Origin: Propionibacteriaceae bacterium
GTDB lineage: Bacteria > Actinomycetota > Actinomycetes > Propionibacteriales > Propionibacteriaceae
DNA: 64,000 bases
Assembly: GCA_009780915.1 (NCBI GenBank)
Contig: WQZD01000010.1
Location: 22,529-86,528, forward strand
Reading direction: 5' to 3'
Shown here: one piece after another, positions 38,782 to 48,936 of the stretch
Position numbering within the stretch: position 1 is the first letter of the stretch
Layout: the number at the start of each line of letters is the position of its first letter
Notes under the pieces: model-generated
The model's input: the letters and a program-made list of their open reading frames with translations, nothing else
The model's database searches: none
What the model was told of the DNA's origin: nothing
Position numbers and translations under genes: made by a program

Positions 38782-39789
38782 TCAGTCGCGGGACCGTCTG
38801 GTGCGAGCCTCGTGGCTCGCCCGATGTGCTTCGTACGTGTCGTATGCGGCGGCGATATGGCCGACCAGGGGGTGGCGTACGACATCCTTGTTGGTCAGCC
38901 GACAGAACGCGATGTCGTCGACCCCCTCCAGGATCCCCGGCACCTCTTTGAGCCCAGACCTCATCGACCCCGGCAGATCGATCTGGGTGACGTCGCCCGT
39001 GACCACCATCGTGGACCCGAACCCCAGACGGGTCAGGAACATCTTCATCTGCTCCATCGAGGTGTTCTGAGCCTCGTCGAGGATGATGAAGGCGTCGTTC
39101 AGGGTGCGGCCCCTCATGTAGGCCAGCGGTGCGATCTCGATCGTCCCCGCCGTCAGCAGACGCGGCACGGAGGCGGGGTCCAGCATGTCGTGCAGGGCGT
39201 CGTACAAGGGCCGCAGGTAGGGGTCGATCTTCTCGCTCAGCGTCCCCGGCAGGAAGCCCAGGCGTTCCCCGGCCTCGATCGCGGGGCGCGTGAGGATGAT
39301 CCGCGAGACCATCTTGGCCTGGAGGGCCTGTACGGCCTTGGCGACCGCGAGATAGGTTTTGCCCGTCCCGGCGGGGCCGATGCCGAAGACGACGGTATGG
39401 GTGTCGATGGCGTCGACGTACCGTTTCTGATTGGCGGTCTTGGGCCGGATCGTACGTCCCCTGTGGGACAGGATCGACGAGGTGAAGACCTCGGCCGGGC
39501 GGATCGTCTCGGCGTCGTCCATGTGGGCGATCCGCTCCACGTCCGGAAGGCTCAGCCCCTGGCCGGTGCGCAGGATCGTCACCATCTGGGTGAGCACGGC
39601 CTCGGCGTGGGCGACCGCGCCTTGGTCGCCTGTCAAGGTGATCTCGTTGCCGCGCACATGGATGTCAGCGTCGAGCGCTGTCTCCAAGAGGCGGAGGAAT
39701 TCGTCGCCAGCCCCCACGACAGCGACCATGGGAATGGACGGGGGCACCGTGACGTGCCGGGAGCAGGATCGAGTCTCAGTGTCGGACAA
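38782..39789 (-). CDS. phoH: PhoH-family ATPase
   Basis: A 335-residue protein with an N-terminal KH-like part and a PhoH ATPase domain: Walker A GPAGTGKTYLA, Walker B AFIILDEAQNTS and VVTGDVTQIDLP. It is probably an RNA-associated ATPase or helicase. The start appears to be TTG with GGAGG about 12 bases ahead, an unusually long spacing. It opens the phoH-ybeY-corC-era transcript; in related genomes rsmE and dnaJ lie close upstream, but here about 8 kb separates them. Confidence 0.94.
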   Translation of the reverse strand: MSDTETRSCSRHVTVPPSIPMVAVVGAGDEFLRLLETALDADIHVRGNEITLTGDQGAVAHAEAVLTQMVTILRTGQGLSLPDVERIAHMDDAETIRPAEVFTSSILSHRGRTIRPKTANQKRYVDAIDTHTVVFGIGPAGTGKTYLAVAKAVQALQAKMVSRIILTRPAIEAGERLGFLPGTLSEKIDPYLRPLYDALHDMLDPASVPRLLTAGTIEIAPLAYMRGRTLNDAFIILDEAQNTSMEQMKMFLTRLGFGSTMVVTGDVTQIDLPGSMRSGLKEVPGILEGVDDIAFCRLTNKDVVRHPLVGHIAAAYDTYEAHRASHEARTRRSRD

Positions 39790-39887
39790 TGTGATGGGTG
39801 AACCTCCGCAGCGTTTCTGTGATCATTCTAGCGCCCTCGGCGGCGCCCTACCGTCCGCCCACACGAATGGTGTGCGGGCGGACCCAG

Positions 39888-39893
39888 TAAGAT
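39888..39893 (+). promoter_or_regulatory. -10 box before the queuosine-precursor transporter gene
   Basis: TAAGAT lies seven bases before GTG 39901 and overlaps ATG 39892. The spacing suggests a leaderless message beginning at that GTG, three codons inside the longest frame. Confidence 0.45.
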
Positions 39894-40590
39894 GCTCGCT
39901 GTGAACCAGAGCGCGGCGCGTGGCCCGAAGTACTACGACCTGATCGTGGCCGGTTTCTGTGCCATGCTCTTGATCGCCAACGTCGCGGCGACCAAACTCA
40001 TCGCTGTCGGACCGGACTGGTCGCCCTTCGGGGTCCACATCCTGCCCCTCGTCTTCGACGGCGGGGCCATCACCTTCCCGCTCACCTATGTGCTGGGCGA
40101 CTGCCTGGCCGAGGTCTACGGATTCGCGAAGGCTCGACGCGCGATCGTCATGGGGTTCGTGGTCTCCGTCACGGCCAGCCTCGTCTTCTTCCTCGTCGAC
40201 ATCGCCCCCCCGGACGCGAGTTGGGGCAACCAAGAAGCATGGACGTCCGTGCTCGGGCTGGTCCCCCGCATCGTGGCGGGCTCCCTGGCCGGGTACTTCG
40301 TCGGCCAACTGTTGAACGCGAAAGTCCTGGTCAAACTCCGCGACCGGGCACGCCCCGGGTCCCTGTGGTTCCGCCTGATCGGCTCGACCGTGGTCGGAGA
40401 GGCCGCCGACACCCTCCTGTTCTGCACCATCGCGTACGCCTTCATCGTCGACTGGGGCACCCTCGGCAACTACATCGGGGTGGGGTACGTGTACAAAGTC
40501 GGCCTCGAAGCCGTCCTGCTGCCCATCACCTTGCGCGTCATCCCCTGGCTGAAGCGCCACGAATGGACCGACACCACCCCTGTGGCGTGA
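39892..40590 (+). CDS. Queuosine precursor transporter (YhhQ family)
   Basis: A 232-residue membrane protein of the YhhQ/DUF165 family, importers of queuosine precursors such as preQ1 or queuine. Family marks are NVAATKLIAVGP, FDGGAITFPLTYVLGDCLAEVYG and the late FRLIGSTVVGEAADTLLF. About six helices. The first ATG is given, but GTG 39901 is an equally good start because of the TAAGAT box. The tgt gene about 6 kb away would use the imported base. The stop codon directly abuts the stop of the convergent reverse transcriptase gene. Confidence 0.9.
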   Translation: MLAVNQSAARGPKYYDLIVAGFCAMLLIANVAATKLIAVGPDWSPFGVHILPLVFDGGAITFPLTYVLGDCLAEVYGFAKARRAIVMGFVVSVTASLVFFLVDIAPPDASWGNQEAWTSVLGLVPRIVAGSLAGYFVGQLLNAKVLVKLRDRARPGSLWFRLIGSTVVGEAADTLLFCTIAYAFIVDWGTLGNYIGVGYVYKVGLEAVLLPITLRVIPWLKRHEWTDTTPVA

Positions 40591-41655
40591 TCACTGGGCA
40601 TCGTCACCCGCAGATGCGCGTTCGCATCGCAGCGAATCGCAGAGCTGAGACCTCAAACCATACGTGTGGCCGTGCTTGAGGTGTGCGAAGTGCGCGCTTA
40701 CCCTCTGCCCCACGTCAGAAGCAGTGAGTTCTCCGCGATTGTGCCTGCGAACCATCCCTGCCATGCCACGCTTCAAACCGGGTTTCTTACCGCTCGCAAG
40801 CCGACGAACAACCTTCCCCTGCGGAGTCTGATGAAAATGGAAGCCCAGATACGTGACCCCTTGGCTCAGCGAGGTGATCTGAGTCTTGGAGTTGAAGTCA
40901 AGTCCCAGACACTTGGCCACGGCACGCATCTGCCGCAGACAGTCACGGAGCATGTCGCGGGACTCATGAACAACGACCATATCGTCCATGTACCGAGTGT
41001 AACCACGCAGTCGCAAACCTTCTTTGACTAGCCGATCAATAGGATCCAGATAGAGAAGCGCCAGCCATTGACTCGTCTGATTGCCCAGGGGAAGCCCCAT
41101 CCCCGGTTGACTGTGGTACGACTCCATGATCACTCGAAGCAAGTCCACCACCTCAACCTCTGGAAAGATCCGCTCCACCTGTTTCAGCAAGACATCATGC
41201 CGGACATTGTCGAAGTAATGACGGACGTCCACTTTCAGCGCATAACCCACGGAACCAGTGGCCCGATACGTCTCGGCCATGAAGCGCGTGAGTCGCCCCA
41301 TGGCGAAGTGGGTGCCCTTGCCCAGACGGCACGCGGCATTGTCATAGACGAGATGCCTGTCGACGACAGGCCCCAGTAGATTGTCACAAAGGCTGTGCTG
41401 CACAACCCTGTCTCGGTAAGCAGGCGCCGAAATGAGACGCCGTTTAGGTTCAAAGACCTCGAAAACTCTGTATGTGGTCGGCATGTAGACGCTGGTTTTC
41501 AATTCTTCTTGTAGCGCGACGAGATTGTCCGCCAGATTCATCTCGAACCGCACAACATCCCGCGAATGCCTTTTGCCTCGTCGAGCTCGCATGTGAGCGT
41601 GGTACAGATTCTGAAAATCATAGACAGATTCATATACAGGGCTCTCTGTCACCAC
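40591..41655 (-). CDS. DGR reverse transcriptase
   Basis: A 354-residue reverse transcriptase of the diversity-generating retroelement class. It has the palm motif KVDVRHYFDNV (Asp about 143), the DGR-specific motif PLGNQTSQ (about 189-196; group II introns and retrons have QGxxxSP here) and the catalytic YMDD (about 222-225). A thumb domain follows, with no maturase or endonuclease domain. GTG 41655 is chosen because GAGGA lies eight bases ahead; the frame stays open through the template repeat but is not coding-like there. The enzyme copies TR RNA with errors opposite adenines. Its stop is adjacent to that of the convergent YhhQ-family gene. Confidence 0.95.
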   Translation of the reverse strand: MVTESPVYESVYDFQNLYHAHMRARRGKRHSRDVVRFEMNLADNLVALQEELKTSVYMPTTYRVFEVFEPKRRLISAPAYRDRVVQHSLCDNLLGPVVDRHLVYDNAACRLGKGTHFAMGRLTRFMAETYRATGSVGYALKVDVRHYFDNVRHDVLLKQVERIFPEVEVVDLLRVIMESYHSQPGMGLPLGNQTSQWLALLYLDPIDRLVKEGLRLRGYTRYMDDMVVVHESRDMLRDCLRQMRAVAKCLGLDFNSKTQITSLSQGVTYLGFHFHQTPQGKVVRRLASGKKPGLKRGMAGMVRRHNRGELTASDVGQRVSAHFAHLKHGHTYGLRSQLCDSLRCERASAGDDAQ

Positions 41656-41868
41656 CCACCACGTCCTCGCCACTGTTTCACTGGTGGGGGAGGCGGCACG
41701 ACGCCGCCTCCCGAAGGGATGAAAACCAGATGAAGCGAGCCGCTGTCTGCGCGTCCACCCCACCACCAGCATGTGTTCGTCCGAGCGGAGGCCCGAACAG
41801 GAATTCGGTTCCTTTGCCTTATACGCAGACGGCCCCTCCTGGGGACTCGTTTCGGGCAGCAAGGCAAG

Positions 41869-41982
41869 GCGGGACGCACACCCAGACGAGCAACCACAGC
41901 GTTGTTGTTGTGATTCCCGTCCGTGTTGACGTTGCCAGCGTTGACAGGGAGACTCCCCGGCGACCGCAGCCACCACGGCGCC
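41869..41982 (-). repeat. DGR template repeat (TR)
   Basis: This 114-bp non-coding copy, between avd and the RT gene, aligns without gaps to the VR at 42709-42822 (constant offset 840). All 96 non-adenine positions (minus strand) are identical. Nine of 18 adenines differ. The adenines cluster in eleven codons, including six AAC and one AAT, the classic design that allows many amino acids without stop codons. Confidence 0.96.
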
Positions 41983-42018
41983 ATCAACCGAAACCCTTGG
42001 CCTGACCGCACCATGACA

Positions 42019-42501
42019 TTACGCACCATGCCGCGCACCCTCCCCATCAGACCAACGCCGGGCATCACTGGCGATCCAGCCGCCCAGCAGACGTTGGCAT
42101 GCGGATGCCAACTGAAGTATTCTTTCATATTCACTCGCACGGAGTCCATTCCGTTCAAAAAGGAGGGCGCCGATGAAACTGAGCAATTTCACCGAGGTCA
42201 AGGCCCGATTCTGAAGACTGCGCCGTTCCTCATACCGGACAATGTCCGTCGCATGCCGCACGTACACCTCATTAGCGCGGAAGACGCACTCCGTGATGTC
42301 CAACGCCAGATTCTGCAGCCTCGACGAGAAGGTGAAGCGGAACTTCTTCGGAGCCCGATCTGTCGCGTCCACGATCACCTCGAGGAGTTCCTTCGCGCGA
42401 GCGATGACTGCCATATCCGCCGCGCCATCAGATTGGGGGCGGCGCATGTGAGCTTGATTCATGCCGATAGTGTGCCAGAAAACATGACTGGTGGCTGACA
42501 T
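42019..42501 (-). CDS. avd: DGR accessory variability determinant (Avd)
   Basis: A 160-residue, mostly helical protein of the Avd/S23-like four-helix-bundle family. It is recognised by APKKFRFTFSSRLQNLALDI and the following basic helices, and by position between target gene and TR. Avd forms a pentamer that binds the reverse transcriptase and the TR RNA and is needed for mutagenic homing in the Bordetella phage system. The start overlaps the target stop as TGATG (GTG at 42504 is also possible); an internal ATG (MNQAHM, 42462) would be closer to the usual length. Confidence 0.88.
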   Translation of the reverse strand: MSATSHVFWHTIGMNQAHMRRPQSDGAADMAVIARAKELLEVIVDATDRAPKKFRFTFSSRLQNLALDITECVFRANEVYVRHATDIVRYEERRSLQNRALTSVKLLSFIGALLFERNGLRASEYERILQLASACQRLLGGWIASDARRWSDGEGARHGA

Positions 42502-45500
42502 CACCGTTCGTCATGCGCCCTGCTCGCCAAGCGCCTGCGAATCGCATCAGCCTCCGGTGAGCGGTCCATGTCAGTCATGTCCGTCCAGCTCTGCTCGATA
42601 TCATCCATGGGCATCACAATGACGGGGAAGTCACCGTGTTCCGACGAGCCCACACTCCGAGATTGAGATTCATCGATGTCAGATGACGGATTCACCCTCA
42701 CCCACAAAGCGGGACGCACACCCAGACGAGCAACCACAGCGTTGCTGCGGCGATTCCCGTCCGTGTCGACGCCGCCAGCGTAGACAGGGAGACCCCCCGG
42801 CGACCGCAGCCACCACGGCGCCGGGCTAGTCTCCCCCATGGCGCACGCTTGAGCCCTGTGCCGCACACTTGGATCGACTGAATCTATGGGGACTCGATAG
42901 ACCCAATCACACAATTCGGTGTCATCCAAGAGATACAGAGCCCCGTCAGTCCCGTCGCATTGAGGCAGAACAAGATGGCCCTTCAAGCCGTCGACGCACT
43001 CCCACTCCCTCCGAGTGGCACGCGCAACGTCGGTGAGCACACATGATGCGACTGCCTGGAATTCTTCTGAGTTCTCGAAGAATTGGTTGAGCTCCGCCCG
43101 GATGCTGGACTGCTCCCATGTCACTTGGTCCAGGCATGAGTGATAGGAACCCCATCCCACGATGTATGTTGACAACAAGAGCGCCTCGTCATGGGCTTGA
43201 TGGATGACCGTCCATCGCCAGGGTCCAAAGCGGACCTCCTCGCCTTCCCTGCTGACGGAGAAGAAGCTGTCCACTGCCGTCTGATCCCCCAGCCGCTCGT
43301 AAGGAGAGTGTCGACCTTCCCCCACACCTACATCCTCGATCCACGAGATAGCCCTCCCAGGAACCCAACCCCGGATCCCTCCCCAGGTGTGACCGTCGGG
43401 AATCTCGCCTGTGTGTGACCACTTCTCTGCAAGCACCGCCAAAACCCGAGAAAGCACGCCCGGGCGTCCACTTGCCGCCATTGTTCCCCATGCGTCTTCC
43501 GCCTCCTCGGCAGATATCGTCAGGTTCCTCATCCCAGTCGACAGCCAGGTGTCCCACGCGTCCACCAGAGTCACGTGGGCCTTCTTCGCCAACGCACGTC
43601 GAACGAGCCTGATCGCGATCCTCAGGGCTGTCTGAAGATCGGGGACGGTGGTGAGAACTCTTTCCATGAACTCGTCCTCCGAGCCGTCTCGTACCATCGG
43701 AGAAATGGAGAACTGTTGATCAATGAGATAGTCAGCCAACTCCTCCGGCCAGAGGCTCCCAATGCCTCCCTCACTATCGCTTGGATACAACCAGTGGAGC
43801 GCCTGCTTCCATTGATCCACCGAATACACGAAGCCTGGATCGACACAGGAGACAATCCACTCGATGCCCCATTGTGGAATCGGAGCATCATCATCGCTTG
43901 CACCCTCTTGGAAAGCAAGAGCCCTCAGGGTCATGAATCGGGCGATACGAGTCTGAATGAACAGGTCACTATCCGGGCTTGTTAACTCCGCATTCGCCTG
44001 TGGGAACAGTCTGCACATGAAGTCGACTGCGTTATTCCAGTGACGGCGTTCATGGTGGAGCAATGTCTCGAAGACGTCATCGATCTTCAGCAAGCTTTTG
44101 GATGTGACCTCAACCCCATATTTGCGGTTCAGAACCGCCGCCAGAGCCCTGACATTCATGTCGATAGGACGTGCCATGTCCTGCTCATTCCTCACCTGCC
44201 GCAGGTACTTGCGGACTCCAATCAGATGATCCCCTGACCGTGAATGTTTCGCAAGAGACACCTGTTTGGCATAGAACTCGTAGGCCGCCGTATAGAGGTC
44301 TGAAACCTCGGCAGCAGTGAGACCGTGACTTCGTTGGAGGTCCACATGCCAGATATCCCCCTTCCCGCATCCTTCCTCTTTAGCCAGCACTTGAGCGAGG
44401 TTCGCCATTCCGTCAGCCGATCGGTCAACCAGAAGGAGTGTGATGGGGTACGCCCCAGCGGTGTCACTGGCGTGCTCGATGGCATCCCGAAGGTTCTTCC
44501 GAATGTCCTCTTGTGGTCGGGCCAGAACGTGATCCACGAAAATCACACACGGTCGTCGTCGCCAGAAATCAATCGCCACCTGGACGGCAGTCTGGCCCGT
44601 GTCATCAACGAGGGGACTCGCCAAGGAATAGCGGTCGTTGTGACTTGGGCCGTTGGATTGATGATCCCGCACCCCTTTCAGGCGCAGGTACCCAATCTTA
44701 TTCCTCACTAGTGCCTTCTCAATTTCGTCAGCCAACCGAGTCTTGCCCATTCCTGCACCGCCGGACACCAGGATCACCCGCGGTCCGCCCTGGCGTGGAT
44801 CCCATGTGAGCAAGTCCCCCACCGTCCATCGCCTGGGAGTGGCTTCTCCCTGGCGGTTGTCCCCCACGCCGATGGCGTAGTAGTTCCGTTGAAATGGATC
44901 GGGCCCACGCTCGGGCTTGAGGATATGCGCCGGTGAATCTCGCTTAGGGTCGTACCAGCCATACAGCCCGCGGGCCGCTGTCAGCCAGGGACTCCTCTCA
45001 CCACGGAACAACAGCCCCACCGCGCCCACGAGCACGAGAAGGACTGCTGAGGATACATTCCATACATGAGTTGGCTGTTGTGGCTGATCGATGAATCGTG
45101 GGATGAACTGCGCCGCCACCATGAAGAACACCGTGAGAAGCAGATAGATGCCCACAGCCCTCAACCCAGGCATGCGCAAGTAGTATGTGACCTCCTGCCA
45201 CGACCATCGTGCCATGAGATGTCCAAGTCCCTGGACGGGCACGATGACGCCGAAGACTTCTAGCGCAAGAACCACCACAGTCACCACCAGGCTCCCATTC
45301 CTCACACTGTCCCACGACAAGGGATGGGGAACGAGGCCAAGCCACGAGAAGAGCCATGTCATCCCTGACAGAAGTGCGATACTGGCGCTCGCTGCCACCC
45401 CTTCGCAGGCCACCAGCCAACGGGCGCCTTGGCGTTGATAATCGTCGCTCCTTCGATACGCCTTCCATTCGGGTGTGCGTCTGTGCGTCCACCCAGAACA

Positions 45501-45680
45501 GAGGAATGCGCACACCACGGCGACAACCGCCGCTATCACCCCGGACGAGAGGAAGAGGAGTGTCGGTGGCAGGATTTCCCACAACGCGATCCCCATGAGA
45601 CCTGCGAGCGCCGTACCCCCAATCTCCACGGGGGTCGCCTGGAAAGCCCATCTCCGCAATACGGTGGGGCGAGTGCTCAT
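42501..45680 (-). CDS. DGR target: membrane-anchored P-loop NTPase with variable DUF6273/C-type-lectin-like domain
   Basis: A 1059-residue protein. Six hydrophobic helices lie in residues 18-225. A P-loop NTPase follows, with Walker A GGAGMGKT (307-314) and a Walker B-like strand PCVIFVDHV (377-385). Then comes a helical region (about 450-790) and a C-terminal DUF6273/CLec-like domain (about 800-1000, with DQVTWEQSSIRAELNQFF and the WWLRSPG...GVRPALW signature) containing the VR. A 60-residue acidic tail ends it. A strong GGAGG precedes the ATG. The N-terminal anchor followed by an ATPase implies that the variable domain is cytoplasmic. The layout resembles STAND-type sensors, but clear STAND sub-motifs were not verified. 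Base composition is visibly less GC-rich than in neighbouring genes. Confidence 0.88.
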   Translation of the reverse strand: MSTRPTVLRRWAFQATPVEIGGTALAGLMGIALWEILPPTLLFLSSGVIAAVVAVVCAFLCSGWTHRRTPEWKAYRRSDDYQRQGARWLVACEGVAASASIALLSGMTWLFSWLGLVPHPLSWDSVRNGSLVVTVVVLALEVFGVIVPVQGLGHLMARWSWQEVTYYLRMPGLRAVGIYLLLTVFFMVAAQFIPRFIDQPQQPTHVWNVSSAVLLVLVGAVGLLFRGERSPWLTAARGLYGWYDPKRDSPAHILKPERGPDPFQRNYYAIGVGDNRQGEATPRRWTVGDLLTWDPRQGGPRVILVSGGAGMGKTRLADEIEKALVRNKIGYLRLKGVRDHQSNGPSHNDRYSLASPLVDDTGQTAVQVAIDFWRRRPCVIFVDHVLARPQEDIRKNLRDAIEHASDTAGAYPITLLLVDRSADGMANLAQVLAKEEGCGKGDIWHVDLQRSHGLTAAEVSDLYTAAYEFYAKQVSLAKHSRSGDHLIGVRKYLRQVRNEQDMARPIDMNVRALAAVLNRKYGVEVTSKSLLKIDDVFETLLHHERRHWNNAVDFMCRLFPQANAELTSPDSDLFIQTRIARFMTLRALAFQEGASDDDAPIPQWGIEWIVSCVDPGFVYSVDQWKQALHWLYPSDSEGGIGSLWPEELADYLIDQQFSISPMVRDGSEDEFMERVLTTVPDLQTALRIAIRLVRRALAKKAHVTLVDAWDTWLSTGMRNLTISAEEAEDAWGTMAASGRPGVLSRVLAVLAEKWSHTGEIPDGHTWGGIRGWVPGRAISWIEDVGVGEGRHSPYERLGDQTAVDSFFSVSREGEEVRFGPWRWTVIHQAHDEALLLSTYIVGWGSYHSCLDQVTWEQSSIRAELNQFFENSEEFQAVASCVLTDVARATRREWECVDGLKGHLVLPQCDGTDGALYLLDDTELCDWVYRVPIDSVDPSVRHRAQACAMGETSPAPWWLRSPGGLPVYAGGVDTDGNRRSNAVVARLGVRPALWVRVNPSSDIDESQSRSVGSSEHGDFPVIVMPMDDIEQSWTDMTDMDRSPEADAIRRRLASRAHDER
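42709..42822 (-). repeat. DGR variable repeat (VR)
   Basis: Codes residues 954-991 of the target. Relative to TR the changes are S963G, N967Y, N970G, N972D, H977R, N978R and N979S, from nine nucleotide changes all at TR adenines (A to G seven times, A to C once, A to T once). The GC-rich 3' flank ending in GTGCGTCCCGC is a candidate initiation-of-mutagenic-homing site. Confidence 0.95.
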
Positions 45681-45898
45681 AGTATCCTCCCTCGTGGCTC
45701 ATCAATGAGCATCAGGCATGAAGCAAGACCTGACAAACCACCACTATAGACGTCGATGTGATGTCAGTTGCAGACGTGCCGAAAATGAGCAGTCTGTCGC
45801 CAGGTTTTGCCCCCGCACGGGCGTCTCTGCGAGCATGGGACGAGGGGGACGAGAGCCCTTCGGGGCACTGACCACCGAATGAAAGGCGATCACCACGC

Positions 45899-46873
45899 AT
45901 GGAACGGTATGAATGGAGGGGCTTGTCCCTGGACATCGCCCGCAGCTTCTTTCCTCCGGCGGTGCTTCGCCGCGTGGTGGACCGGCTGGCCGAGTTCGAC
46001 CTCAACCGGCTGCACCTGCACCTGAGCGACGACCAGGGGTGGCGCCTGGAGATCCCCTCGCGGCCGGAGTTGACGGCGCGGTCGGGATCGAGCGCCGTGG
46101 CCGGCGGGCACGGGGGCTTCCTCTCCGTGGACGAGTACTGCGACCTGGTCGACTACGCCTGGTCCCGATCCGTGGTCGTGGTCCCCGAGATCGATCTGCC
46201 CGGGCACACCCACGCCGCGCTGCACGCCTGCCCCGAGTTGAACCCCGGCCACGAGGCCCCCGCCACCTTCGACGGGATCGACGTGGGGTTCTCCCACCTG
46301 CATCCCGACCTGCCGGGAACCGAGACCTTCGTGCGCGATGTGCTGACGCAGGTCGCCGCGATGACACCGGGGCCGTGGGTCCACATCGGCGCCGACGAGT
46401 GCCCCCTGCTGGAGCTGGACGACTACGCGCGATTGGTGAGATCGGCTTGCGACATCCTGGCTGACAGCGGAAAACATCCGATCGCGTGGCAGGAGGCGGC
46501 GTCGGCCGAGGTGGGGCCGTCCCTCATCCTGCAGTACTGGCGCACGGGACTGGACCACATCCCCCACGCCCTGGACGACCTGCTGGCACAGATCCGTGAC
46601 GGAGCGCAGGTCATCTTGTCCCCCGCCTCGCACGTCTATTTCGACATGAAGCACTCCCCCGACGACACCCTCGGCCAAGACTGGGCCGGCCACTTGCCCG
46701 TCGAGAAGGTGCGGACGTGGGTCCCCGAGAAGACGCTGCCGATCGACCCGGCGTCCATCCTGGGAGTCGAGGCCGCGATCTGGACGGAGCGCATCCACAC
46801 CGAGGAGGACCTCAACCGCATGCTGCTGCCCCGACTGGCCGCCTTCGCCGAGGTGGCGAACCGGCCGCGGTGA
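45899..46873 (+). CDS. Beta-N-acetylhexosaminidase catalytic domain protein (GH20)
   Basis: A 324-residue glycoside hydrolase family 20 protein, essentially the catalytic barrel alone. It has RGLSLDIARSFFPPAVLRR, NRLHLHLSDDQGWRLEIP, EIDLPGHTHAAL and the catalytic Asp-Glu pair in HIGADECP. It should remove terminal N-acetylhexosamine. There is no signal peptide and no GH20b domain, so it is predicted to be cytoplasmic and to act on imported sugars. No good ribosome site is visible next to the ATG. It is the only plus-strand gene between the DGR and tgt. Confidence 0.88.
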   Translation: MERYEWRGLSLDIARSFFPPAVLRRVVDRLAEFDLNRLHLHLSDDQGWRLEIPSRPELTARSGSSAVAGGHGGFLSVDEYCDLVDYAWSRSVVVVPEIDLPGHTHAALHACPELNPGHEAPATFDGIDVGFSHLHPDLPGTETFVRDVLTQVAAMTPGPWVHIGADECPLLELDDYARLVRSACDILADSGKHPIAWQEAASAEVGPSLILQYWRTGLDHIPHALDDLLAQIRDGAQVILSPASHVYFDMKHSPDDTLGQDWAGHLPVEKVRTWVPEKTLPIDPASILGVEAAIWTERIHTEEDLNRMLLPRLAAFAEVANRPR

Positions 46874-48121
46874 TCACTTCTTAGTGCGTCGGTACCGGCC
46901 GAGGAAGTCGTCGCGGAAGCTGTCGAAGTCTCCGGTCTCGATCGAGTGGCGGATGTCGTCCACCAGGCGCACATGGAAGCGCTCGTTGTGGATCGTCATG
47001 AGCGTGTAGAGCAGCAACTCGTTGGCCCGCGTCAGGTGATGGAGGTAGGCCCGCGTGTGATGCGTGCAGGTGTAGCAGTCGCACCCGGGCTCCAGCGCTG
47101 AGAAATTTCTCTTGCTTGGCAGGGTGTCCACGTTGTAGCACCCGTCGGCGGTGTAGACGCGCCCGTTGCGCGCCGTGCGTGAGGGGTTCACGCAGTCGAA
47201 GGTGTCCGCCCCGGTCTCGATCGCGGCGAAGAGGTCCTCCGGCTCCGAGATGCCGAGCAGGTGTCGCGGCTTGTCGTCAGGGAGTTCCTCGTTGACCCAG
47301 CGGCAGATGGTGCCCAGGTTCTCCTTCTCCAGGGCGCCTCCGATCCCGAAACCGTCGTAGACCTGTCCGTCCACCTCGGCCTCGGCCAGGTCGCGTGCGG
47401 CCTTGCGCCGTAAGTCCTCGAACTGGGCGCCCTGCACCACGCCGAACAACCCCTGGTACGGCTTGTCGGCCCTCTCCTCGGTCAGGCGCCGGTGCTCCCT
47501 CAGGCAGCGCAGCGCCCAGGCGTACGTACGGTCCAAGGACGCCTCCTGGTACCCGCGCGTGTTCATCAGGGTCGTGCACTCGTCGAAGGCGAACATGATG
47601 TCCGCGCCCAGTTGGTGCTGGATCCGCATCGACACCTCGGGGGTGAAGCGATGCTTGGAGCCGTCCCGGTACGACCGGAAGTTCACCCCGTCGTCGTCGA
47701 CCAGCGCCAGGCGGTCCTTGCCCTTGGCGATCACGTCGTCGCTGGCCAGCCCAGCCGTGGACATGGCCAGCACCTTCTTGAAGCCCGCCCCTTGGCTGAG
47801 CACCTGGAAGCCGCCCGAGTCGGTGAAGGTCGGCCCCTGCCAGCCCATGAAGGCGCCCACGCCACCGGCCTCGTCGACCAGGTCCGCGCCGGGCTGCAGA
47901 TAGAGGTGGTACGCGTTGGCCAGCACGGCCTGCGCCCCCAGCTCGGCCACGTCGCGCGGCAAGACGGCTTTCACGGTGGCCTGGGTGCCCACCACGATGA
48001 ACGCGGGGGTACGGATGTCGCCGTGGGGGGTGTGGATCACCCCGGAGCGCCCCAGCCCATTGGGCAGGGAGGCCCCTGGGGTGAACGAGAAGGTCTCCTG
48101 CTTGCGATCGGGCGAGGTCAT
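46874..48121 (-). CDS. tgt: tRNA-guanine transglycosylase
   Basis: A 415-residue enzyme that exchanges guanine 34 of tRNA (Asp, Asn, His, Tyr) for a queuosine precursor. It has the substrate-pocket strand PTFTDSGGFQVLSQG, the catalytic Asp region ETGADTFDCVNPSRTARNG and the zinc site CDCYTCTHHTRAYLHHL. ATG 48121 overlaps the rsmE stop (ATGA). The YhhQ-family transporter gene about 6 kb away likely supplies its substrate. The DGR lies between them. Confidence 0.96.
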   Translation of the reverse strand: MTSPDRKQETFSFTPGASLPNGLGRSGVIHTPHGDIRTPAFIVVGTQATVKAVLPRDVAELGAQAVLANAYHLYLQPGADLVDEAGGVGAFMGWQGPTFTDSGGFQVLSQGAGFKKVLAMSTAGLASDDVIAKGKDRLALVDDDGVNFRSYRDGSKHRFTPEVSMRIQHQLGADIMFAFDECTTLMNTRGYQEASLDRTYAWALRCLREHRRLTEERADKPYQGLFGVVQGAQFEDLRRKAARDLAEAEVDGQVYDGFGIGGALEKENLGTICRWVNEELPDDKPRHLLGISEPEDLFAAIETGADTFDCVNPSRTARNGRVYTADGCYNVDTLPSKRNFSALEPGCDCYTCTHHTRAYLHHLTRANELLLYTLMTIHNERFHVRLVDDIRHSIETGDFDSFRDDFLGRYRRTKK

Positions 48122-48936
48122 CGTCCTCCTTGTGCGCCGATGGGCGGCGCGTCGTCGTGGGGGGTGGGTCGAGTCTGGGGGGACGGGGCGGTACGGGCCT
48201 GGCCCACCTCGGCCAACAGTCGCACCTGCGTGACGGCCACGGCTCCGGCCGTCGAGGTGCGCAGCACCGTGGCGCCCATGAGGTACGTGACGCCGGAGGC
48301 CTCTTCGAGCACGCGGACCTCTTCGTCGGTCAACCCGCCCTCGGGGCCGATCACGATCACGACCGTGCCCGTGCTCGGCACCAGGCACTCGCTGATCGGG
48401 CGGGTCGCCTTCTCGTGCATGATGATCGCGCAATCGGCGTCGGCCACCAGCCCGGCCACCTCGGGGAGGGTGGCGCACTCACCGATCACGGGGAACCTCA
48501 ACCGGCGCGACTGCTTGGACGCCTCGCGAGCCGCGTTCCACCACTTGGATCGGGCCTTGTCGCCCCGCTCGCCGGTCCATCGCACCTGGCTGCGGGCCGC
48601 CGCCCAGGGGCGTATCTGGTCCACGCCCGCCTCGGTCATGAGGTCGACGGCCAGTTCGGCCCGGTCGGCCTTGGGCAACGCCTGGGCCACGGTCACGTGC
48701 AGGCCAGGGGGCGGCGTCGCCAGCACGGAGTCGACCTCCACCTCGATCCTGGTCTTCGACACGCTCGCCACGCGCCCGATCACGCCTCGTCCGCCACCAT
48801 CGGTGATCGTGACCGTCTCCCCGACCGCCATGCGTCGCACGACCGCCGCGTGATGGGCCTCCGGGCCGGTGACCGCCACGACGTCCCCCGGACAGACCGA
48901 CGGGTCGAGGTCACAGACGAAGAAGCCGTCGCTCAC
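48118..48936 (-). CDS. rsmE: 16S rRNA m3U1498 methyltransferase
   Basis: A 272-residue SPOUT methyltransferase with an N-terminal PUA-like part ([21 protein letters not shown]), [14 protein letters not shown], and the C-terminal SAM knot [16 protein letters not shown] and [17 protein letters not shown]. It modifies helix 44 of 16S rRNA. A C-terminal tail of about 30 residues ([14 protein letters not shown]) is an extension. It overlaps both dnaJ (four bases) and tgt. Confidence 0.94.

Follow-up and report, generated by a model that had tools for sequence, protein, structure and literature searches.

A Diversity-Generating Retroelement Predicted to Vary the Lectin End of a Membrane NTPase in a Propionibacteriaceae Bacterium

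Results

Organization of the Retroelement

We analyzed a 64,000-nucleotide stretch of DNA from a Propionibacteriaceae bacterium (positions 22529-86528 of contig C10; the genome measures 2.78 Mb at 99.4% completeness), referred to below as the window. It contains a diversity-generating retroelement (DGR) whose parts occupy the minus strand: first the target gene, with the variable repeat (VR) inside it, then avd, the template repeat (TR) and the gene for the reverse transcriptase (RT) (Table 1). A sequence-only reading of the window had proposed this arrangement, and the four elements were found at the positions and in the order claimed. That reading had also named a frameshift in RT or avd as grounds for abandoning the proposal; the target, avd and RT frames are open throughout, with no internal stops or frameshifts. 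The RT falls among DGR RTs (see below), and the element is a DGR that is, as judged from its sequence, intact, which upholds the idea of a complete, intact DGR in an actinobacterium.

Table 1. Positions of the features of the retroelement within the window.
Feature	Position	Strand	Description and basis
DGR target gene	42501..45680	-	1059 aa; open reading frame, Pfam, helix and charge prediction, structure model
VR	42705..42822	-	Codons ~954-992 of target, within lectin domain; 118-base match to TR
avd	42019..42459	-	146 aa; alternative start GTG at 42504
TR	41865..41982	-	18 adenines; 118-base match to VR
Spacer RNA element 3' of TR	41758..41821	-	Box CARAGGAA, hairpin, box RAAYA; 9-locus alignment
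10-bp GC-rich hairpin, between TR and RT start	41688..41712	-	Hairpin scan
DGR RT	40591..41652	-	353 aa, probably from GTG at 41652; PHROG, RVT_1, motifs, trees, PDB match
Inserted low-GC cassette	40591..45680	.	Between YhhQ-type transporter gene and host genes GH20 and TGT; GC content; empty site in G180, G181, G186

Template and Variable Repeats

The TR and VR form the longest repeat pair in positions 39000-47000, being 92% identical over 118 bases. Of the 10 positions at which the two repeats differ, 9 are TR adenines (P = 5e-8), with changes from TR to VR of A to G at seven positions, A to T at one and A to C at one. The tenth difference is a C to T change 4 bases from the 3' edge, and when the last 4 bases are dropped to leave a 114-base core, all 9 of the 9 differences fall at TR adenines (P = 7.5e-9); both P values treat sites as independent. 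A chance repeat was considered as the source of the match and rejected, given the confinement of the core differences to TR adenines. At the non-adenine positions of the 118-base match the repeats are identical in 99 of 100 cases, which points to recent copying. The TR adenines are divided equally between codon position 1 (9) and codon position 2 (9) of the VR frame, and none can yield a stop. Because the differences in the core fall only at template adenines, the cassette would be expected to keep rewriting the lectin end of the target. A DNA search of the genome found no further copies of the TR or VR, and matches to DUF6273 in the genome occurred only at the target and, below the cut-off, at the TR.

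The Target Protein

The target has six predicted N-terminal membrane helices (residues ~18-225), a P-loop NTPase region (~260-430) with the P-loop GGAGMGKT at residue 307, a helical middle, a C-terminal DUF6273 lectin domain (831-995) and a 60-residue tail; an effector role for the helices is only putative. Pfam identified the lectin as DUF6273 (37.4 bits, cut-off 23.5) and not as FGE-sulfatase, and a Pfam scan at E 0.1 found no Ig-like families in the target. Placement of the VR in a domain of the C-type-lectin fold is usual for DGRs, though not universal. The membrane loops contain 19 lysine and arginine residues on the inner side and 1 on the outer side, and because these residues are concentrated in the inner loops the NTPase and lectin are predicted to be cytoplasmic. 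A search for homologs of the full target recovered only the window's own protein among 7994 scored candidates, and a Foldseek search against the PDB gave no match at E 0.001.

Placement of the Reverse Transcriptase

The RT lies in an open frame of 461 amino acids that extends back through the TR, but homology begins near 41640, so translation probably starts at the internal GTG. The protein matched PHROG_1423 (7e-101) and Pfam RVT_1, and both of the motifs pointed out in the sequence-only reading, PLGNQTSQ and YMDD, are present. The motif (I/V/L)GxxxSQ replaces QGxxxSP in DGR RTs, and the window RT reads LGNQTSQ where the group II rows of our alignment read QGxxxSP. The best match in the PDB was 8ub7 (1.3e-39), which we take to be the DGR RT of BPP-1, followed by 5hhl (6.2e-15) and the group II RT 6ar1 (7.4e-15). 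Clustering with retrons or group II introns had been named as an outcome that would speak against a DGR; the RT fell among DGR RTs and apart from the group II rows in two trees, of 31 and 56 rows, in both of which the DGR rows split from the group II rows at 100/100. The identity of a group II intron RT is rejected by the trees and the PDB match scores.

In the 56-row tree the window RT grouped with four RTs of three genomes of the same genus (97/94), these five grouped with eight other cellular RTs from Clostridia, Christensenellaceae, Lachnospiraceae and Betaproteobacteria (100/99), and next to this cellular set came 30 phage RTs (100/99), the 43 in total being recovered at 99/97. Support for the eight other cellular RTs as a single branch was weak (81/69). 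RTs with formylglycine-enzyme (FGE)-type or Mtd targets, from cyanobacteria, Prosthecochloris, Treponema, Bacteroidetes and BPP-1, lay outside the 43, and the 31-row tree agreed with the larger one. Both trees leave out the RT rows of loci L035 and L056, and L024 gave no tblastn row; the 56-row tree was built after dropping two long outgroup rows and with every third viral locus (27 of 80), the viral loci being the best 80 of at least 577 relatives. A match to the RT at E 0.001 was present in 30 of 198 family genomes, with 1e-49 reached by only five: the window's genome, its congener G180, G181, G187 and G165 (partial). Among 394 sampled genomes of the class, the window's own was the only one with a match at E 1e-25.

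We also examined which lectins accompany these RTs. A DUF6273-like lectin was detected with a home-made profile at 62 of the 80 viral loci, at 8 of the 9 cellular loci tested from the RT group of the window (the exception being L050), and at 3 of 14 other reference loci, these being only the three sister-clade phages; the profile was built partly from loci that it then found (L048, L049, L052, L055 and L059). Lectin type and RT lineage thus go together. A P-loop pattern was found in only 1 of 64 viral lectin frames.

Sister Loci in the Genus

The related DGRs of the same-genus genomes G180, G181 and G187 show the same adenine bias, with 16/16, 18/20 and 18/18 TR/VR differences at adenines, respectively. 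Two VRs on other contigs also match the TR of their own genome, with 21/26 (locus L073 of G187) and 21/28 (L146 of G180) differences at adenines. The targets of G180 and G181 have the organization NNH6-PNP-NACHT-DUF6273, and that of L073 is NNH6-NACHT-DUF6273 with a TIR-like stretch recognized by eye. Scores for NACHT (cut-off 26.7) were 30.9 bits for G180, 35.2 bits for L073 and 25.8 bits, just below the cut-off, for G181. In the target of L067 Pfam detected only the lectin, the alignment showing a C-terminal stretch of NACHT type and the N-terminus lying beyond the contig; the L146 target is KAP-like by eye. Thus in all three genomes DGRs of the same RT clade are paired with a DUF6273 lectin that is fused to NACHT wherever the N-terminus is known, two of them with a phosphorylase domain. 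In G180 the TR and VR lie on two contigs whose ends have the same 119 bases (L066 1-119 and L075 9836-9954), and a break in the assembly at the repeats is the probable reason.

When the NACHT-lectin part of the G180 target served as the query, 138 proteins were returned, at least 5 of which have DUF6273 (P0002-P0005 and P0012) among the 120 matches listed; many other relatives of its NACHT part have WD40 or pentapeptide repeats in the place of the lectin. P0002 is the G180 target itself (100% over the searched part). Between the G180 target and P0003, 12 of 16 adenine-coded VR residues differ, against 3 of the remaining 24 (Fisher P = 1.3e-4), and divergence concentrated at adenine-coded residues is the pattern a DGR would leave.

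DUF6273 is present in 6 of 19 genomes of the genus. Several further fusions of it were seen. P0004 and L080 are SIR2_2-NACHT-DUF6273 proteins, and no DGR was linked to either. A TIR_2 domain is joined directly to DUF6273, without an NTPase, in L071 (9742-11319, G187), and KAP NTPases with a DUF6273 end occur in L140 (4012-6192, G181) and L145 (194-2578, G180); no DGR was linked to any of these three. G180 has 19 DUF6273 matches in total. Its contig C62 (L074, 988-13074) carries a row of small DUF6273 lectin frames of 189-556 amino acids on one strand, and none of these showed a long match to the G180 TR with a bias to adenines. G165 contains a decayed DGR (L070, 4258-5458) with a lectin VR end and an avd fused into the C-terminal half of the RT, for which the repeat scan found no TR.

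Avd and the Spacer RNA

The avd product was identified by PHROG_3206 Avd (2e-19), its scores against NCBIfam DivGenRetAVD (37.6 bits) and Pfam bAvd (20.8 bits) being below the respective cut-offs of 80 and 40. The RNA element in the spacer 3' of the TR, a feature absent from the sequence-only reading, is common to the window and other cellular DGRs of the same RT clade, and we infer that it belongs to the RNA bound by RT and Avd. The outer 5-pair stem of its hairpin is intact in 45 of 45 cells of the alignment, with 14 cells changed on both sides, compared to 49-69% for slid controls; the stem was picked from folds of the same sequences, so this count leans towards pairing. The spacer folded better than mononucleotide shuffles, with z of -1 or below, in 7 of the 10 sequences compared, one segment of this set (Clost157) having been wrongly cut. 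No Rfam match was found for the element at E 0.1. The nine top matches of a model of the element were its own building sequences, with one further match below E 0.01 (L049, 0.0036); the model had no listed match at L050 or L059, matched L055 away from its TR, and matched 0 of the 80 viral loci at E 0.1.

Genomic Setting

The genes surrounding the cassette are PhoH, YhhQ, GH20, TGT, RsmE and DnaJ. The GC content of the cassette is 57.7-58.9%, versus 65.8-69.0% in four flanking genes. GH20 was rejected as a member of the cassette on its GC content of 69.0%, the value of host genes. The YhhQ and TGT genes that flank the insert are approximately 66-134 bases apart in G180, G181 and G186, where the insert is absent; this comparison covers 5 of 9 genomes, those with TGT and YhhQ on one stretch. 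Because its GC content is below that of its flanks and the site is empty in three sister genomes, the cassette looks foreign and was probably gained by horizontal transfer. The site (39892-48130 of the window) is variable in the genus, being empty in those three genomes, occupied by ABC-transporter-like genes in two (G176 and G177), and occupied here by the DGR and GH20. In G185, 20 kb separates PhoH from TGT.

Discussion

A Model for the Role of the Target

Our preferred interpretation, to which we assign a probability of about 0.55, is that an intact DGR, probably gained horizontally, is predicted to diversify the C-terminal lectin of a membrane protein, and that this protein is likely to sense intruders in the cytoplasm in the manner of an NLR. 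Sister-species DGRs from this RT clade have NACHT proteins with the same lectin end as their targets. According to this model, RT and Avd would bind the TR RNA with its structured spacer, the RT would copy the 118-base template with errors at adenines, and the cDNA would replace the VR. The varied face of the lectin could then bind a foreign molecule in the cytoplasm, allowing the NTPase to assemble, and the membrane part (in the window) or the phosphorylase part (in the sisters) would kill or stall the infected cell. A population would thereby hold many sensor variants, among which infection would select.

Several results weigh against this interpretation. The NTPase scores just below the cut-off for Pfam AAA_16 (31.6 bits, cut-off 32.6) and reaches only 13.6 bits for NACHT, and the sequence of its Walker B region is CVIFVDH, compared to VIFDGLDE or similar in the sisters. 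A search with the membrane-NTPase part (residues 1-820) found only the window's own protein among 7995 scored candidates, and the structure model is poor outside the lectin (mean predicted local distance difference test score of 54.6). PADLOC gave no match for the target, the listed neighbors are housekeeping genes rather than a defense island, and the immune role is one that we infer from domain company only. The VR also lacks a hairpin found at related loci, as described below.

The alternative that survives best, which we nonetheless consider unlikely, is that the DGR works but that its target is a membrane signaling or adhesion protein, whose lectin would bind sugars, hosts, neighbors or an internal metabolite and whose NTPase would gate a non-immune response. 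The NTPase is not confidently of the STAND class, and the lectins of the nearest non-actinobacterial RT relatives are in proteins with signal-peptide-like or autotransporter-like sequence, as judged by eye, in which no P-loop was noticed. Surface targets of DGRs are also known from Legionella and Treponema, according to PMC10907252. However, the distribution of charges across the membrane loops indicates that the lectin should face the cytoplasm, and the RT relatives of the same genus act on NACHT proteins.

Another alternative concerns the activity of the element. In BPP-1, homing is aided by a hairpin that directly follows the VR on its 3' side, though such a hairpin is not found in every DGR. 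No perfect hairpin (at least 6 pairs, loop of 3-8) was present within 160 bases 3' of the window VR, compared to 5 of 5 related VRs examined by the same criteria. The sequence-only reading held that all parts needed for mutagenic retrohoming are present and intact: the four parts are present and open, but in view of this difference the set may not be complete for homing. The DGR could then be a decaying passenger that no longer homes in this strain, one conceivable cause being the lack of the hairpin, and the decayed DGR of G165 and the single TR/VR difference outside adenines, at the 3' edge, are compatible with such a fate. We regard decay as improbable, given the near identity of TR and VR at non-adenine positions, which points to recent copying, and the open state of all frames. 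Very improbable is a prophage origin with a target that serves the phage, in spite of the sister relationship to phage RTs and the lectin common at the viral loci, since the surrounding genes are those of the host and the target is fused to an NTPase, a combination hardly seen in the viral lectin frames.

Returning to the interpretation as a sensor, sister species carry like cassettes on recognizable genes of immune-receptor type, which suggests that bacteria may have evolved mutable immune sensors on more than one occasion. We offer, tentatively and with somewhat less than even confidence, the broader proposal of a second bacterial origin of hypermutating NLR-type receptors, in which Propionibacteriaceae recruited a DGR lineage akin to those of gut phages and one DUF6273 lectin sensor, joined to alarm proteins of the membrane-helix, phosphorylase-NACHT and KAP-like kinds by shuffling, is maintained in a hypervariable state inside the cell.

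Comparison with Known Systems

DGRs fall into six clades, with viral and cellular DGRs mostly separate (PMC8144416). Because DGRs have already been counted in Actinobacteria (PMC6642488), a DGR in this phylum is not new. The role of cell-borne DGRs is an open question, one published idea being that in multicellular bacteria some of them supply immune sensors of an anticipatory kind. In such bacteria Dore et al. 2024 (PMC10907252) described DGR-diversified STAND NTPases with FGE-type or other C-type lectin domains and RTs of clade 5D, and proposed them, untested, as antigen sensors. Some of these targets have TIR or peptidase ends, and membrane helices occur in their DGR 3 and DGR 9. FGS-lectin DGRs have been placed within ternary conflict systems (PMC7159879), and a general hypothesis of immunity based on DGRs has been put forward (PMC10053308). 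No DUF6273-NACHT targets of DGRs were described in the titles or abstract openings of the matches listed in our literature search. If the same kind of protein has been reached here by a separate RT lineage that uses a different lectin family, such convergence would strongly support the immune interpretation. The presence in one genus of several lectin-NTPase fusions beside one DGR lineage makes a mutable sensor with exchangeable effectors directly testable as a general bacterial design.

The DGR of the Bordetella phage BPP-1 shares with the window the order target, avd, TR and RT and the location of the VR at the 3' end of the target, but its target is a phage tail protein and its RT is distant in the tree. 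Tentaclins and other gut-phage targets (PMC10743442) share a hypermutated C-type lectin of DUF6273 type, and the RT of phage nd12 belongs to the clade that is sister to the RT group of the window; tentaclins, however, are phage proteins with an N-terminal lectin and Ig-like domains, whereas the lectin here is C-terminal on a cellular membrane NTPase with no Ig-like family. The bacterial NACHT, NLR-related and Avs proteins that act against phages, as described in PMC10907252, have a succession of effector, NTPase and C-terminal sensor that the window target may share, and the sister targets match Pfam NACHT and NNH6; the window differs in that its sensor end is predicted to be under DGR control and that its NTPase is AAA_16-like. 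The AAA ATPase-lectin targets of Candidate Phyla Radiation bacteria likewise fuse a P-loop NTPase to a DGR-diversified lectin, but their RTs belong to another clade (clade 2), by the description in PMC10907252.

The closest parallel is with the STAND targets of Dore et al., in which the VR is also in a C-terminal lectin-fold domain and the NTPase is of STAND type, that of the window being a P-loop NTPase. The architecture of the target had initially been thought undescribed; however, DGR targets of the STAND NTPase type that end in a lectin, in some cases with membrane helices as well, are already in the literature, and what distinguishes the window is its lectin family, RT lineage and host group. 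The lectins of the STAND targets are of FGE type, whereas that of the window is DUF6273, and the window RT groups with phage and cellular RTs of DUF6273 type, away from cyanobacterial and Chlorobi RTs of FGE type, which stand as proxies for clade 5D, no row of which is in our trees. In lectin family and host group, and as far as the proxies show in RT lineage, the element of the window differs from the published STAND DGRs, and it is perhaps of independent origin.
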